IMG/VR virus record: IMGVR_UViG_3300006802_000320
Location: 1 to 31,560 of that record
DNA: 31,560 nt
Origin: a virus
Strand: one strand, 5' to 3'
Shown here: piece after piece, positions 18,678 through 29,503 of the stretch
How the letters are laid out: every line of letters begins with the position of its first letter
How positions within the stretch are numbered: the first letter of the stretch is position 1
The notes under the pieces: model-generated
The model's database searches: none
Told to the model about the DNA's origin: nothing
What the model saw: the letters and a program-made list of their open reading frames with translations, nothing else
Translations under genes and position numbers: made by a program

Positions 18678-20791
18678 CAACCCTGCGTCTGTGCGGAAAT
18701 TACGTCGGATGTACGCTGTGCATTGGACTGCACTTGCGAGATTAAATCAGGCTGGTTTTGCGCAGCCTGCGCTGCTCCTGCCGGCGCGCTGGGCGCGGTT
18801 TCTCCCTGCTGGGAATTCTGCGCTGCCTGCTCGTGCTGCTGCATGTGCTGGCCCATAGCTTGTTCGATCTGTGCGATGAACTGTGCCGCTTGCGGGTTGG
18901 CAGGGTTGCCAGTCAGGTCCGTGGCCTGCGCTTGTTGGTTGAGTTGTATAAAGGTCGGATGCTCTCTGAATAGTGAGTGCACGCCCAGATGCGCTGCGTG
19001 GTCTTGCTGTGGTAGCACCTCTATCTGCTCGCCCGTCATTACGCGGTCGTTTTCGTATTGTGCCGCCCTCTGCGCCTCCACGTTGTCCTGATCCTGCAGC
19101 ACGCGCTCCACGTCCTGCACGCCATGCGCAATGGCGGCGAGCTTGTCTACCTCAAGCTGGTCGTAGTTTGGACGGTTGCCTGCCCACGCTACAAACGCCA
19201 TCGTGCGGTCGCGCTCAAGCTGCTCGTATAGTGGCTGCGTTGAGCCCGTTTTTGTTTCTATGCGATACGTATATAAAAAGTCTGACGTCCTCAGTGCGCG
19301 CACGACTCGCTGCTCCCCGTTTGGTGCTATGTTTTCAACGAACGACTCTGGCGTATACCTCGGATCGCCCATGATTTGAAACGCATTGCGCACGATAGTC
19401 TCGTAGAAAGTATTTACCGCTGCCTCCATCCAGTTGCCGTTGACCTGCGCAGCGGCAGCGACGACAGCCGCTTCCGTTGCCGTCTCCGACTGGCCGGCCT
19501 GCGGTGGCGCAAGTGCGGCGATCTCGCGCTCCATACCCATCATCATGCTGGAGAAGTTATACACGTCGACCGGGACGTTGCCCCAGTTAAGCTCACGTAT
19601 GTTGTTAAGATCCTCGACGCCCACAAACTCGCCGTCGCGTCCAGTGCGCATTACGTCGCCGATCTCTGGGTTGCTTTCCAGCTCGCTGTTACGTATCGCA
19701 GTCATGCGCGACGTGCGCTTAAGTAGGTCGGATACGCGGCTGACCTGCTCAATGATGCTGTTTTGTATGTCCTCTAAATATTTGAGATGCCCTAACGGGT
19801 AGAAGCTCTCCTGCGCCAAATCGAACTTGATAGCGACAAACGGAAAGCCCTGCTCCACCAGCCACCCGGACGACTCCTCACCACCTTGCAAATTCAGCAC
19901 GGGCTCTGTCGGCTCACCAGTCACGTCGTCTATGTCGAATACGGGCTGGCCCAGCAGGTCTGTTACCTGCGGGAACGTCATCTTGCGGAATGGGTGCGGG
20001 ACGTCCAGTATAGGCTGGTCGACGCCCGGCACGAACATCACCTCGCGGCGTTCCATGCGGTTGTGCCACCGCTCCACCAACACAAAGTCGCCGTTGCTGA
20101 TTGACTCGCGCAGGGCCTCCTGCTCTGGGCCGTCGTAGCGTTCGCCCATCACCTCGCCGTAGCCTACCTCGTCTTCGCGTGACAACTGGGTCGGCTTGAT
20201 CTGCTTTTTGTTTTGAATGCGCGGGTCGTCGAGCAAATATTGCATCGGGGTCCAAAACTTCTCGCGGATGTATCGCTTGTCACCCAGTCGGTGCGGGCTA
20301 CCCGTGGGGTCCAGATGCACGTAACCGGGGGCAACGCGCTGGCAGACCACCATATCCTCTGCGAAGTCGTCGTTGGTCGTGTAGGGGGCAATGAAGTCGT
20401 CCCCGGGTGGGTTGTAGTCAAGTCGAATCCAGCCAACGCCACAGAAGAGCGCGTCGAATATAGCCTGATGGACGTGGCTCTTCAGCGACGTGATCTCCAT
20501 ATAGCTGCCGGCAGCGCGCTCCAGAATGGGCGCTACGTCGGCGTTGACCTCGTCTTCTACATTGAACGACATGACCGGGTAGTTGTGGGCAATGCTACCC
20601 AGTATCTGTCGGACAATGGGGTAAAACCGGCTGACCTTCACGACGTCTTCAGCGCGCAGGTCGCGTATCTTCTCGTCGAACTTAAGCTCGTATGAATCGT
20701 AAAGCTTTTGCCAGCTCTCCTGCCGGTCCCGATACAACGAGTCCAGCATTTCTCCTTCTGCTTTATACCACGATATCTCGTACTTATTCAT
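18677..20791 (-). CDS. Portal protein, P22-type
   Basis: A 704-aa protein starting at ATG 20791 in an ATGA overlap with TerL. It begins MNKYEISWYKAEGEMLDSLY and contains phrases typical of P22-like portals: FYPIVRQILGSIAHNYPVMS, FDALFCGVGWIRLDYN, VHLDPTG, YPLGHLKYLEDIQNSIIEQV and NWMEAAVNTFYETIVRNAFQ. The C-terminal about 100 residues are Gln/Ala-rich and helical, like the barrel extension of P22 gp1. The family forms a dodecameric ring at one capsid vertex through which DNA is packaged and ejected. Length is near that of P22 gp1, and adjacency to TerL supports the call. Confidence 0.9.
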   Translation of the reverse strand: MNKYEISWYKAEGEMLDSLYRDRQESWQKLYDSYELKFDEKIRDLRAEDVVKVSRFYPIVRQILGSIAHNYPVMSFNVEDEVNADVAPILERAAGSYMEITSLKSHVHQAIFDALFCGVGWIRLDYNPPGDDFIAPYTTNDDFAEDMVVCQRVAPGYVHLDPTGSPHRLGDKRYIREKFWTPMQYLLDDPRIQNKKQIKPTQLSREDEVGYGEVMGERYDGPEQEALRESISNGDFVLVERWHNRMERREVMFVPGVDQPILDVPHPFRKMTFPQVTDLLGQPVFDIDDVTGEPTEPVLNLQGGEESSGWLVEQGFPFVAIKFDLAQESFYPLGHLKYLEDIQNSIIEQVSRVSDLLKRTSRMTAIRNSELESNPEIGDVMRTGRDGEFVGVEDLNNIRELNWGNVPVDVYNFSSMMMGMEREIAALAPPQAGQSETATEAAVVAAAAQVNGNWMEAAVNTFYETIVRNAFQIMGDPRYTPESFVENIAPNGEQRVVRALRTSDFLYTYRIETKTGSTQPLYEQLERDRTMAFVAWAGNRPNYDQLEVDKLAAIAHGVQDVERVLQDQDNVEAQRAAQYENDRVMTGEQIEVLPQQDHAAHLGVHSLFREHPTFIQLNQQAQATDLTGNPANPQAAQFIAQIEQAMGQHMQQHEQAAQNSQQGETAPSAPAGAAQAAQNQPDLISQVQSNAQRTSDVISAQTQG

Positions 20792-22173
20792 CCGTATCTG
20801 CTCTCTATCAAATCGTCGGCGAGCTGGTCTATCAGCCGGCCACCATCGTTGAGTGGTCTATCCTCGACTTTGCGCGCCTTGTAGACGTGGTTTATTCCGT
20901 AGCGCAGCGCGTCGGCCCCGTGGTCGTCGCCGCTGCTTGCGTCCTCTGGGTTGCGCGATTCGCGCTGCAGACTCAGCAAGCTGTCGACTACACGCTCGGT
21001 CGATCCACGGAAAAACTTTAGCCGGCCAGCGTATAGCAAATTAGCTATGTTCCGCCATCCATTGACACGGTCCATGTTCGCCTTCGACAGCGTCAGCCCG
21101 TGGTCCCGGAACGTGTCGACCGGTGCACGTGCTTGCGATACGTCTCCCGGAGCACGCCTTGTCCACATATCCCCGGGCGCTAAGAGCAACCGTGGTTGCC
21201 GTCCATACGCGCCGCCGATGGACGTGTACCTGCACTCGTCTATCATTGCTCCGATGCCCTGAGCGTGCTCCGCTCCTGCTCCCGACGAGTAGTAGCTACT
21301 GACCACCCACACGTCATCGTCGTAGTCTACAGCCAGCAAGACCGCAGCCGTAGGATTATTCTCCCCGTAGTCCATTGCCATGAACAACGGCCAGTTTTCT
21401 GGCACTTCAAATGGGTCGACCAGCAGATCGTTGCGCATAGCAGAAAACATAGCGCCGAGGCTAACGTCCCAGTTGCCATCCAGATACGCTGCCGTCAGCT
21501 CAGGATCTCCCATACCCATCAACCTGTTCGGGTAGTCTGGGTCAGCGTCAAGCAGTGCACGGTTGTCCTGCACGCGCGCTGGGATGAAGCAGCGCACCAT
21601 TTTAGACTCTTTGTCGAGTAGCGGCACGTAGCCGTCTGGGTATTTGTCGATAGCGAAGTATCTTTTGACCTCACCGTGACACCTGCCGCCGGGGTTGCCT
21701 GTAGCCCGTATTCGCTTATGCTGTGCCGGCCCGCGCAGGCGCGACTTCATCATCTGATAGGGTCGCAAGCTGTCCCACGTCGGCAGCTCATCCCAGCCGA
21801 TGAACGCGTAGCTGTGGCCCATATACTTCATAAAGTCCGCGTCAGTATCCATGTGCCTCAGCCTGATCTCTGCTCCACCCGGGAACCTCCACGTCCGAAT
21901 GCCGACCTTATACTCGCCTCCCATCGGGCCGTAAATCTCCATTGACCGGTGGATCAGCTCGTCCATGTCCGTCGTATGCCGGCGAAAAATGATGCCTATC
22001 CAGTCGCTGCCCTGATCGACGTCCTGCACAGCATCAGCCAGTAAGAAATCGGACTTCCCCCCGCCGGCTGCGCCACCATAGAACAGCTCGTCTATGGCCT
22101 CACCTGACATGATCGCCATCGCCTGTGGCCCCACCTGCGGGGACCAGACAAACTTAGTCTGCCCAACTGTCAT
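20788..22173 (-). CDS. terL: Terminase large subunit
   Basis: A 461-aa packaging motor protein with the ATPase-plus-nuclease layout. Walker A is GGAAGGGKS at residues 33-41. Walker B with catalytic Glu is YAFIGWDE at about 122-129. The coupling-type motif TGNPGG is at 158-163. The C-terminal RNase H-like nuclease begins with MAMDYG (Asp268) and has late acidic residues in GDDHGADALRYG (about 415-426). It cuts concatemers and drives DNA through the portal. It overlaps TerS by 20 bases at its 5' end and the portal by 4 bases at its 3' end. All expected motifs are present, so it appears functional. Confidence 0.95.
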   Translation of the reverse strand: MTVGQTKFVWSPQVGPQAMAIMSGEAIDELFYGGAAGGGKSDFLLADAVQDVDQGSDWIGIIFRRHTTDMDELIHRSMEIYGPMGGEYKVGIRTWRFPGGAEIRLRHMDTDADFMKYMGHSYAFIGWDELPTWDSLRPYQMMKSRLRGPAQHKRIRATGNPGGRCHGEVKRYFAIDKYPDGYVPLLDKESKMVRCFIPARVQDNRALLDADPDYPNRLMGMGDPELTAAYLDGNWDVSLGAMFSAMRNDLLVDPFEVPENWPLFMAMDYGENNPTAAVLLAVDYDDDVWVVSSYYSSGAGAEHAQGIGAMIDECRYTSIGGAYGRQPRLLLAPGDMWTRRAPGDVSQARAPVDTFRDHGLTLSKANMDRVNGWRNIANLLYAGRLKFFRGSTERVVDSLLSLQRESRNPEDASSGDDHGADALRYGINHVYKARKVEDRPLNDGGRLIDQLADDLIESRYG

Positions 22174-24093: not shown

Positions 24094-24114
24094 TGTATTT
24101 GTGTATTTTTATGC

Positions 24115-24143
24115 TTGACTATATATCTCTTTAATACTACATT
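24115..24143 (+). promoter_or_regulatory. Divergent early promoter (plus strand)
   Basis: TTGACT (24115-24120) and TACATT (24138-24143) are 17 bases apart and face the Erf-SSB operon. The -35 boxes of this and the repressor promoter are about 20 bases apart, back to back. The -10 box lies inside an operator-like inverted repeat. Confidence 0.65.
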
Positions 24144-24147
24144 AGAG
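24127..24147. promoter_or_regulatory. Candidate repressor operator
   Basis: Imperfect inverted repeat CTCTTTAAT...ATTAGAG spanning the spacer and -10 of the early promoter. A related half-site, ATACTCTTTA, occurs at 24068-24077 over the repressor -10 region. Shared half-sites at both promoters fit a repressor that controls both. Confidence 0.5.
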
Positions 24148-24159
24148 TATAAATAAATA

Positions 24160-24201
24160 CCGCAGGTTGGCCTCACTCGCCAAAGCTAAACCAACCTACG
24201 G
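24160..24201 (+). other. Hairpin in the early-operon leader
   Basis: CCGCAGGTTGG (24160-24170) pairs with CCAACCTACGG (24191-24201) with a single mismatch and a 20-base loop. It lies just downstream of the early promoter and has no U run, so it is not a normal terminator. A second small inverted repeat, CCTAATC/GATCAGG, is at 24212-24230. The remainder to 24355 shows no gene. Confidence 0.6.
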
Positions 24202-24355
24202 CTCACTTAAACCTAATCACGTAGATCAGGTCTATGTCAAAAATACATAAAAGCAACTCAAAAGTCTACATATATAGATTATTGATACTGCTTTTTTCTG
24301 CGTATTTTGCACATCTGGCCGTCTCCGTGGTTACTAAACTAACGGAGGTATGCCC

Positions 24356-24559
24356 GTGAGTGCGGCACAGCTATCCCCCCAACCTCATTGGAAGCTCTTT
24401 ACAAAAAACGGCCAATGGCACAAGGCATTTCGCCCCTGCTCTAACTGTAGCGGCACGATGTCCCTTTGCGGCACGAAGGCTTTCTCGTATTACGCCTGCC
24501 CAGATTGCGGTGACGCATTAGACACTCGTCTTGCCGAGGAGTCGTCCGATGCGCAATAG
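24356..24559 (+). CDS. Small early zinc-ribbon protein (67 aa)
   Basis: An ATG at 24350 lies only one base after GGAGG. The in-frame GTG at 24356 is seven bases after it, so I choose GTG. The protein has two CxxC knuckles (PCSNCSG and ACPDCGD) and an intervening Cys, so it probably binds zinc. It is the first gene of the early operon and overlaps the Erf start by 11 bases. The role is unknown; candidates are a DNA-binding accessory or a host-interaction protein. Confidence 0.7.
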   Translation: MSAAQLSPQPHWKLFTKNGQWHKAFRPCSNCSGTMSLCGTKAFSYYACPDCGDALDTRLAEESSDAQ

Positions 24560-25190
24560 CCCGTCTACTGTAGAGATTTCACAAGCCCTCGCCCGTTTCC
24601 AGAGCGCCTGCACGGGCGCTGTGAAGGACGGCACAAACCCCCACTTCAAGTCCAAATACGCGTCGCTCGACGCGATCTGGGCTGCTATACGCGAACCCCT
24701 CACCACGAACGGACTGTCGGTCACCCAGATGGGTGACTGGCAGGACGGGACCGAGCTGCTGGTCACTACCATCTGGCATGTGTCGGGTGAGTTTATCAGC
24801 GGCGTGCAGCCCGTCAATTTTGAGACGACGGGCCGGCGCAACGGCAGTCAGGAGCACGGGTCTGCCATGACCTACCTGCGCAGGTACGCTATCGCGGCTG
24901 CGCTGGGCATCGCGTCGCAGGACGACGACGACGCCGAGTCTTCCGTCGCGCCACAAAACAAAAAGGCAGCGCCAGCAAAGAAAGCGCCCGCCCCTACCCC
25001 ATCCGACCAACAGCAGGTCAAAAACTTTGTAGACCACGTATGCGCAATGGAGCCACCCGGATATATCATCGGAGCTGCCTGCGAAGCCGTGGGTGCGGAC
25101 TCGTTAGAAACCGTCCCAGCAGACAAGCGCCGGGAGGTCATCGCAGACATCAAGATGCTTATAGCTGACAACATAGGAGACAAATCATGA
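24549..25190 (+). CDS. erf: Erf-family single-strand annealing protein
   Basis: The start is ATG 24549 (213 aa) because GAGGAG lies seven bases upstream; an in-frame TTG six codons earlier is less likely. The ERF core occupies about residues 8-125 and ends in the diagnostic GSAMTYLRRYAIAAALGIAS. After an Ala/Lys/Pro-rich linker (residues 130-155) there is a small C-terminal helical region. Proteins of this family anneal complementary single strands and help circularise or recombine phage DNA. The gene overlaps ssb by four bases (ATGA), so the two are co-translated and probably act together. RusA-like resolvase follows downstream. Confidence 0.9.
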   Translation: MRNSPSTVEISQALARFQSACTGAVKDGTNPHFKSKYASLDAIWAAIREPLTTNGLSVTQMGDWQDGTELLVTTIWHVSGEFISGVQPVNFETTGRRNGSQEHGSAMTYLRRYAIAAALGIASQDDDDAESSVAPQNKKAAPAKKAPAPTPSDQQQVKNFVDHVCAMEPPGYIIGAACEAVGADSLETVPADKRREVIADIKMLIADNIGDKS

Positions 25191-25561
25191 ACGACGTGCA
25201 TCTATCCGGTAAGGTGGACCGTGCCCAGTATCGCACGGTTGGCGCAGACAACATACCCCTGCTCACGTGGACGACGGTCGTTGAGCGGTCGTACAAAGGG
25301 CGCGACGGGCAGACGAGGGTCAGTTCGCAGTACATCAAATGCTGCGCGTGGAGAAAGGTCGCAGAGGACAACCAGCGGCTCAGGGACGGACTCCTCGTGA
25401 CGTGTAGAGGGTCGATCAACAACCGCAGCTATCAGAAGGACGACGGCACAACAGCCTACATCACAGAAGTCGTCTGCACGGATGTAAACATGGAAAACCA
25501 CGACAACGACACGGTAGCCTACAACCCGGCTGCAGACTACGGAGACGACCTACCCTTTTAA
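25187..25561 (+). CDS. ssb: Single-stranded DNA-binding protein
   Basis: A 124-aa OB-fold SSB. It starts MNDVHLSGKVDRAQYRTVG and contains LLTWTTVVERSYKG and QYIKCCAWRKVAEDNQRLRD, with the usual beta-strand pattern over residues 1-105. The tail is short and acidic, ending DYGDDLPF, which matches the family's C-terminal tip used to recruit partner enzymes. It coats single strands during replication and recombination. It is co-translated with Erf and is followed by the structured non-coding region. Confidence 0.9.
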   Translation: MNDVHLSGKVDRAQYRTVGADNIPLLTWTTVVERSYKGRDGQTRVSSQYIKCCAWRKVAEDNQRLRDGLLVTCRGSINNRSYQKDDGTTAYITEVVCTDVNMENHDNDTVAYNPAADYGDDLPF

Positions 25562-25953
25562 ACCAGTCGTGCGTCCGGGGCTGGGGCTCCCGGGAGCCTA
25601 TAAGGGGATGCGATAATCGCATTGGCCTCGGACGCACGCACCAACACACGGTCGCCAGCCTGCTGACAATAGGGCTGGCCCACCGGCAGACATAGGCGCA
25701 GTAAGGTTCCCGGAGTGCATCCGGGCAGGGGCAGCGCACACACAAACAGCCCAATGTCACACGTAAGCGCGTCGCGTGATAATTGACGCGCATCCCGACG
25801 GGTGGACGTAGTCGTACAGACAATCTCCACAGCAGTCCGTCACACTGGCGAGATCGGCCAGAGGACAACGGATCGGATCACTGTAGATAGATGGTTCGGA
25901 ATTGGTGATAGGGTTATCCCTAACAGGCAGAGGGCACACAGGGGGGAATAAAG
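25562..25953 (+). ncRNA. Highly structured 390-base non-coding region (candidate ncRNA or origin)
   Basis: No convincing gene is present on either strand. Perfect or near-perfect hairpins follow each other. The first is a three-way junction: outer stem CGTGCGTCCG/CGGACGCACG (25568-25577 with 25629-25638, extended inward by five more pairs), a 14-bp palindrome at 25585-25598 and an arm at 25608-25622. Next come GCCAGCC/GGCTGGC (25654-25660, 25673-25679), CCCGGA/TCCGGG (25709-25725), GCGCGTC/GACGCGC (25767-25791), CTGGC/GCCAG (25845-25861) and TAGGG/CCCTA (25909-25922). It lies between ssb and a resolvase gene. A structured phage RNA or a replication origin are the two best readings; the RNA strand is assumed to follow the operon. 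Confidence 0.55.
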
Positions 25954-26340
25954 ATGTCTTTAAAGAGGCGTGTCGCATTGCACACGGTCATACCCACGGC
26001 AAACGAAATGATCAACATAGAGCGCAGGAACAAATACCTCGCGGCGAAACTGAAAGCGACCACGGAGCGCGATCTGATACGAGAGATGATCGCCTTCTTT
26101 ACTACTAAACACGAGGAGACGCAGTACCCCGTACACATGACGTACACGTGGCATCGCAAAAACAAGCGCACGGACCCCAGCAACGTAGCGTGGGGTACGA
26201 AATACATAGAGGACGCACTGCAGCGCGCGGGCGTGCTACGCAATGACGGTCCACGCGAGATCGCGTCGATCACCCACCAGTACGTCTACGATGCGGACGA
26301 AAACTACGTCGAGGTCGAGTGGTGCAGCGAGCCCTCGTAG
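25954..26340 (+). CDS. RusA-like Holliday junction resolvase
   Basis: A 128-aa protein with a GGGGG ribosome site before ATG 25954. The C-terminal half shows the RusA pattern: TYTWHRKNKRTDPSNVAWG with Asp74 and Asn77, then KYIEDALQRAGVLRNDGPRE with Lys83, Asp87 and Asp98. RusA-type enzymes form dimers and cut four-way junctions. Here it would resolve recombination intermediates made by Erf and SSB and trim branches before packaging. The N-terminal 55 residues are longer than in many RusA proteins and basic. Confidence 0.8.
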   Translation: MSLKRRVALHTVIPTANEMINIERRNKYLAAKLKATTERDLIREMIAFFTTKHEETQYPVHMTYTWHRKNKRTDPSNVAWGTKYIEDALQRAGVLRNDGPREIASITHQYVYDADENYVEVEWCSEPS

Positions 26341-28008: not shown

Positions 28009-28249
28009 CCCATACAGCGCACTGTCTGCCGCAGTGATAAGACAAGCTGCCCACGACATGCAAAAATCCATCAAACACTGGAACCACGACGACGAAAAAA
28101 TACGGGACGCGGCACGCGCTACCTACGCTGAATGCCGCCGATTCTTGCTGTCCGTTGACAGCCCCTACCACTCTATGCTCAAACTCGACAACGACGTGTA
28201 TACACGCATCGTGGAGCAGGTCGAACACAGTGCTGGATTGCACAACTGA
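27983..28249 (+). CDS. Small protein after the sigma gene (88 aa)
   Basis: ATG 27983 lies inside the end of the sigma gene, with GAGGAG eleven bases upstream. The protein is helical and His/Asp-rich (RQAAHDMQKSIKHWNHDDEK, ARATYAECRRFLLSVDSPYH). No family is recognised. The overlap suggests co-translation; an accessory to the sigma factor or to the nuclease that follows is possible but unproven. Confidence 0.65.
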   Translation: MVLNFPHDDPYSALSAAVIRQAAHDMQKSIKHWNHDDEKIRDAARATYAECRRFLLSVDSPYHSMLKLDNDVYTRIVEQVEHSAGLHN

Positions 28250-28691
28250 GGTAGGGCGGCAGTATCTGGCGCACGAGGACGAGACCGCCCGGCGCGTAGG
28301 ATTCAAGCTGCGCTGCCAGCCAGTCAAGCTGGGCGGGCTGGCTACCACGGTCGACCGAGCCTTCATACGAGACGGCCATATCGTCGGACTGGCTGAAATC
28401 AAAACGCGCGGCATGAGCGTGCAGGAGTTGCGCGGGTTTGGGTCGTATCTCGTGACGGCTAAAAAATTACAGGACGGCATGGATCTGGCGCGCGCGCTCG
28501 GCGTGCCTTACGTGCTGATCGTGAGGACGCTCAAGGATGACGCGGTGGTCTGCTGGACCATCTCGGACAAAACCGGACGTCAGTTAGTGCAATGGGAGAC
28601 AAACAATACCGTGACGCAGGCAGGCTGTAACGGCGGCACGGCATACAGGACCAATGCATATATTCCATTAACCCATATGAGGCTATTGTAA
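28230..28691 (+). CDS. PD-(D/E)XK nuclease-like protein (153 aa)
   Basis: I place the start at GTG 28230 (VLDCTTEVGRQYLAHEDETA). The open frame extends upstream to 28155, but that part reads as a shadow of the preceding gene. The catalytic pattern is visible: Asp42 in TTVDRAFIRDG and Glu56-x-Lys58 in GLAEIKTRGMS. A helix follows with FGSYLVTAKKLQDGMDLARA and the strand VPYVLIVRTLKDDAVVCWTI, all in the order of the PD-(D/E)XK fold. It could process phage DNA ends, degrade host DNA or act in recombination; substrate is unknown. It overlaps the preceding gene by 20 bases. Confidence 0.7.
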   Translation: MLDCTTEVGRQYLAHEDETARRVGFKLRCQPVKLGGLATTVDRAFIRDGHIVGLAEIKTRGMSVQELRGFGSYLVTAKKLQDGMDLARALGVPYVLIVRTLKDDAVVCWTISDKTGRQLVQWETNNTVTQAGCNGGTAYRTNAYIPLTHMRLL

Positions 28692-29203: not shown

Positions 29204-29503
29204 ATGCCACCATTGTATCCTGATAGAAAACCTATACCAGACACCGTAAAGCGCGCCGTCAGAGAGCGCGCTGGCAACTGCTGTGAGGAATGCGGTGACG
29301 ATGGTAGATTAGAGTTTCACCACCTCACATATCTGTATACAAATTCTAACTACCACCGGGATTGGTTTGGGTTAATATTTGGTGCAGAAAACCCTGACGA
29401 TTTAATGTTGTTATGTAGGCAGTGTCACCACCAGCAACACAGAGATTCTAATGGTTATTTTTGGGCAGACCCAGACGATCACCCAGAAAGGAACATTGCG
29501 TAA
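29204..29503 (+). CDS. HNH endonuclease (99 aa)
   Basis: It starts MPPLYPDRKPIPDTVKRAVR. The HNH signature is clear: CCEECGDDGRLEFHHLTYLY with a zinc CxxC and the catalytic His pair, then NPDDLMLLCRQCHHQQH with Asn63, a second CxxC and the last His. HNH enzymes nick or cut DNA using one metal ion. Possible roles are packaging-associated cutting or a homing-type free-standing nuclease. It lies in AT-rich accessory DNA, two bases after the previous stop, with a poor ribosome site, so it may depend on translational re-initiation. Confidence 0.85.
   Translation: MPPLYPDRKPIPDTVKRAVRERAGNCCEECGDDGRLEFHHLTYLYTNSNYHRDWFGLIFGAENPDDLMLLCRQCHHQQHRDSNGYFWADPDDHPERNIA

Follow-up and report, generated by a model that had tools for sequence, protein, structure and literature searches.

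Large conserved RNAs in the early operons of phages are, to our knowledge, few and mostly without known function. Processing into separate RNAs is one known fate of structured phage elements, and the put RNA of HK022 is short and sits directly downstream of early promoters. Structured RNA elements of phages also comprise antitermination leaders (PMC9378689) and translational operators (PMC535899), while at the origins of T4 RNA primers lie within R-loops (PMC3016281). The GOLLD and ROOL RNAs (PMC12286853) are large, ornate noncoding RNAs known from phages too.

The window analysed here, a virus record, is a 31,560-base phage contig whose early operon contains a noncoding gap predicted to form an RNA of this broad kind. 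Like the HK022 put RNA (PMC9378689) it would be a structured part of early phage transcripts, but it is 392 nt long and is placed after the second recombination gene. It resembles GOLLD and ROOL in being a large noncoding RNA, but has no Rfam match and lies in another context. As at the R-loop origins of T4 (PMC3016281) and with ColE1 RNA II, a transcript from a region involved in replication or recombination could serve as a primer for DNA synthesis. With the Rfam family RF02932 (Betaproteobacteria-1) and a wider set of phage RNAs it shares its nature as a structured RNA in a phage early region, and a diverged member of that family occupies the same operon in sister phages of the window; unlike these, the window RNA lacks the core GGUCGG...ACGGCAGC...CUGUGGG and matches neither the family model nor models of the sister RNAs.

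The packaging and structural genes of the window (terminase, 20788-22173; portal; major head protein) are located on the minus strand, and the early genes on the plus strand in the order small zinc-ribbon-like ORF, ERF, ssb, rusA, SWIM-like ORF, a 212-aa gene without an assigned family, and a sigma-factor-like gene. A putative PDDEXK endonuclease gene (28155-28691; Pfam PF24579, E 3.3e-9) and, downstream of it, an HNH endonuclease (29204-29503) are also encoded. The initial annotation had described a tightly packed genome, which is accurate for most of the contig, although 200-300 bases are left free at two or three further places. The gap considered here spans exactly 392 bases (25562-25953), since the ssb stop codon ends at 25561 and the rusA ATG is at 25954. 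The genes of the operon are as follows:
24531-25190, plus strand: ERF single-strand annealing protein gene (Pfam PF04404, E 1.6e-22)
25187-25561, plus strand: ssb gene (Pfam PF00436, E 1.3e-12)
25954-26340, plus strand: RusA-like Holliday junction resolvase gene (phrog_1682, E 1.1e-27)

The dense array of hairpins noticed earlier in this gene-less gap is borne out by counts: seven separate perfect hairpins with stems of at least 5 bp are present, compared with a mean of 2.5 in dinucleotide shuffles (none of 300 reached seven), and four with stems of at least 6 bp, compared with 0.7 (P 0.007). The outer stem described as closing a palindrome and a second arm is also found, with 13 Watson-Crick pairs out of 14, enclosing the palindrome GGCTCCCGGGAGCC at 25585 and the second arm ATGCGATAATCGCAT at 25608-25622. 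As RNA, the plus strand of the gap folds with a z of -3.52 (0 of 100 shuffles as low) and the minus strand with -1.39; with DNA parameters both strands are significant (z -2.8 and -3.5), so that energy alone cannot separate RNA from DNA. Relative to other 392-nt windows of the contig the GC-corrected energy is moderately low (-1.5 sd), and energy by itself is thus no proof of function. A GC hairpin with a T run was sought in the gap and not found, which rules out an intrinsic terminator. Neither a promoter clearly belonging to the element nor a terminator at its end was identified, so a separate RNA would require processing. The suggested Rfam search (Rfam 15, 4227 models) matched no family, ruling out a known RNA family as the identity of the element, and no DNA relatives of the gap were found in named phages and plasmids. 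The element is new in this respect, while its broad kind, structured phage RNA, is already known. Its predicted parts are:
25562-25953, plus strand (sense strand of the early operon): whole structured noncoding element (conservation, compensatory pairs, z -3.5)
25566-25639, plus strand: three-way junction, 4 nt past the ssb stop codon, with outer stem 25568-25581/25625-25638
25584-25599 and 25607-25623, plus strand: palindrome arm and second arm of the junction in the predicted fold
25649-25685, plus strand: hairpin with the conserved 12-nt loop UGCUGACAAUAG, the best supported helix (three compensatory pairs in the close relative)
25696-25737, plus strand: two-part hairpin GCGC..CCCGGA..UCCGGG..GCGC, predicted in the window and in the close relative
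25749-25935, plus strand: multibranched domain of ~190 nt, closed by GCCC/GGGC (25749-25752/25932-25935) and UGUC/GGCA
25767-25791, 25797-25841, 25845-25861, 25877-25909 and 25910-25921, plus strand: arms of the multibranched domain in the predicted fold
25940-25946, plus strand: rusA ribosome-binding site AGGGGGG, seen in the sequence at the end of a 57-nt stretch identical in the close relative

The close relative is a single contig, IMGVR_UViG_3300030099_003935 (L002, also L007), with a gap at the equivalent place. The two gaps are 92.6% identical, above the genes on either side (mostly 76-93% in 100-base segments); identity reaches 98% at 25700-25799 and at 25900-25999, and the last 57 nt ahead of the rusA start do not differ at all. 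The differences amount to 26 substitutions and five single-base indels. The indels disrupt every frame, which excludes a conserved protein in all frames and with it a protein-coding gap.

The check for covariation in relatives proposed in the initial annotation was run on L002, using helices predicted from the window alone and a null in which the same substitutions were placed randomly. Its outcome favours structure: four two-sided compensatory changes occur in two helices, compared with a mean of 0.19 and a maximum of 3 in 20,000 randomisations. In the outer stem of the junction, the pair 25574/25632 changes from U-A in the window to C-G in L002. The other three lie in the hairpin 25649-25685, where 25650/25684 changes from G-C to A-U, 25657/25676 from A-U to G-C, and 25658/25675 from G-C to U-A; one pair of this hairpin, 25656/25677, has turned into a mismatch. 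As a single close relative is known, covariation is limited to four pairs in two helices. Substitutions in L002 disrupt nine predicted pairs, a number not below the chance expectation, and 72 pairs are common to the 115 predicted in the window and the 112 in L002. Helices beyond the two covarying ones are mostly invariant and hence uninformative on pairing. The helix of the hairpin 25696-25737 is unchanged, the sole difference being a loop base, and the multibranched domain, which ends just upstream of the rusA ribosome-binding site, is about 95% conserved, with no two-sided change in its helices and some predicted pairs broken in L002.

With conservation, the absence of a protein frame, compensatory changes and a sense-strand folding bias established, the existence of a structured RNA is well supported for the two sequences. 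Of the two options put forward in the initial annotation, a replication origin and a structured phage RNA, the evidence favours the latter, on account of the compensatory changes in L002, the better fold of the sense strand and the G-U-tolerant sense-strand changes in the sister RNAs described below; nothing specific for an origin was found. Our preferred reading, held with about even confidence, is a conserved noncoding RNA that is transcribed in sense within the early ERF-ssb-rusA operon and acts as RNA independently of its exact place. The transcript would fold into the three-way junction right after ssb, two more hairpins and the ~190-nt multibranched domain before the rusA ribosome-binding site. 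The RNA may be released from the operon transcript or protected inside it, and could work, for instance, as a binding partner of a phage or host protein during the early phase of recombination and replication.

Searches with terminase and RusA yielded a group of sister phages (L008/L024, L009/L023, L010, L013, L021, L022, L025 and L026), in which terminase is 59-60% and RusA about 45% identical to that of the window. A terminase scan of genome contigs returned distant terminases only, and the RusA relative L027 lacks a comparable gap. The order ERF-ssb-rusA is kept in the sister phages wherever the sequence covers the operon. Their ssb-rusA gap is ~130 nt and contains, a few nt past the ssb stop codon, a hairpin whose stem has 15 bp and which is similar to the three-way junction of the window in place and size, the sequences not being alignable; among L008, L022, L025 and L013 this hairpin shows three U-A/U-G switches and no broken pairs. 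Upstream of ERF the sister phages contain ~370 nt of noncoding sequence, folding with a z of -2.1 in sense and +0.2 in antisense, and pairing is kept there, mostly via G-U, through three two-sided changes and about twelve one-sided ones. The predicted structured RNA lies at:
L008:6805-7179 (-): ~370-nt structured RNA upstream of ERF
L022:993-1363: the same
L025:1111-1481: the same
L013:107-476 (-): the same

The window and L002 have no comparable noncoding region upstream of ERF, and both phage groups appear from the predicted folds to carry a long structured RNA in this operon, at different places. Homology of the gap element to the sister RNA is unsupported by alignment or by covariance models: sequence alignment is borderline (P 0.05 and 0.02), models R1 and R2 of the sister RNA place a site of the gap at the top of the region searched, but with E of only 0.2 and 0.9, and model R3, a weak test that captured 4 base pairs only, has no match in the gap. 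Two gaps of the sister phages contain extra DNA, 220 nt between ssb and rusA in L025 and 184 nt between ERF and ssb in L022, which reads as putative small genes rather than RNA (L025:2417-2771 and L022:1907-2090); the L025 frame looks like a candidate PC4-type DNA-binding protein.

The sister ~370-nt RNA matches RF02932 over all 120 positions with 28-31 bits, compared with 12 bits for chance hits and a gathering score of 49.4 bits, under which it falls. The sister phages contain the core of the family, GGUCGG...ACGGCAGC in a stem followed by a CUGUGGG hairpin, with a flanking stem that is variable yet pairing, and by these sequence matches their RNA is a diverged relative of RF02932. In the gap of the window the model finds no match up to E 5 (the best hit of the contig, 12 bits, lies elsewhere) and the core is absent, so that by every test made the gap element is not a member. 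A search for the core pattern gave matches in 42 viral contigs, with about seven random matches estimated. Among 36 further records tested against RF02932, 16 reach the gathering score and another 7 have E <=0.0002, and some loci missed by the Rfam model (L071, L081, L083) match a model built from the sister phages. In most pattern-matched contigs the flanks of GGUCGG...ACGGCAGC pair despite differing sequence, while the loop motifs are invariant because the pattern demanded them. Judged from these matches, RNAs like RF02932 occur widely among viral contigs, although the Rfam name refers to bacteria; they were noted in L061-L064, L067, L070-L074, L077-L081, L083, L084, L086, L088-L091, L093 and L095-L098. 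ERF neighbours the RNA in L061, L089, L091 and L098, a primase-helicase is encoded directly downstream in L089 and L091 and RNase H in L079, and repressor-like genes are located nearby in L079 and L081. Through the RNA of the sister phages, the orphan family RF02932 becomes linked to genes for recombination and replication in phages, and the presence of a different RNA in the sister operon makes a role in phage replication, early gene expression or host takeover testable. It is conceivable, if improbable, that the window RNA and the sister RF02932-like RNAs are exchangeable versions of one function, the starting or licensing of early replication and recombination in phages that lack an initiator.

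Action independent of position is suggested by the sister phages, in whose version of the operon another RNA, similar in size, precedes ERF; on this argument, a function independent of the gene next to it is somewhat more probable than a role confined to controlling rusA. If the window and sister RNAs are not equivalent, the argument falls and control in cis becomes about as likely. As things stand, a cis-acting leader that controls rusA translation, or the passage of transcription into the remaining operon, in the manner of the HK022 put RNA or an ssb autoregulatory site, is a possibility to which we give tentative credence. The element lies between two genes of the operon, its final 57 nt before the rusA start are those identical in L002, the closing stem of the multibranched domain ends just upstream of the rusA ribosome-binding site, and phages offer precedents for cis-acting early RNAs in the put RNA (PMC9378689) and the T4 gp32 mRNA operator (PMC535899). 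However, the element is far bigger than the put hairpins, and the long sister RNA precedes ERF, rusA being preceded there by the ssb hairpin alone, a point valid only if the RNAs are equivalent. An ordinary mRNA-stabilising hairpin after ssb followed by functionless spacer would account for the one part that has a counterpart of similar kind in the sister ssb-rusA gap, but three of the four compensatory changes fall outside the ssb hairpin and the rest of the gap is equally or better conserved (including both 98% segments), which makes this reading highly improbable.

A replication origin, possibly primed by a transcript as at the T4 R-loop origins or by ColE1 RNA II, would recruit host replication enzymes. 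The earlier statement that the phage encodes no polymerase, helicase or primase was upheld, none of these nor an initiator being found among the ORFs of the contig tested; the gap is situated among recombination genes, both of its strands fold better as DNA than shuffles do, and RF02932-related phage RNAs adjoin the primase-helicase and RNase H genes mentioned above. Those neighbours, however, relate to another RNA, absent from the window phage, and the features of classical origins, namely iterons, an AT-rich unwinding stretch and a nearby initiator gene, are lacking: the gap contains no iterons and no AT-rich stretch, and its GC content is 60%, above the 54% of the contig. The three clustered GATC sites noted initially are real (25852, 25871, 25876). 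With 128 GATC in the contig, close to the number expected at random, the gap is not enriched and the cluster is weak evidence. An origin is unlikely compared with the preferred noncoding RNA.

After GC correction, the strongest-folding stretch of the contig is the minus strand at ~24109-24500, in and beside the early control region. An early-leader hairpin at 24161-24202 has the loop CUCGCCAAAG, which also occurs in L012 on a different stem, and in L008, L009, L010, L013 and L025 in the opposite operon orientation, followed by a T-rich stretch.
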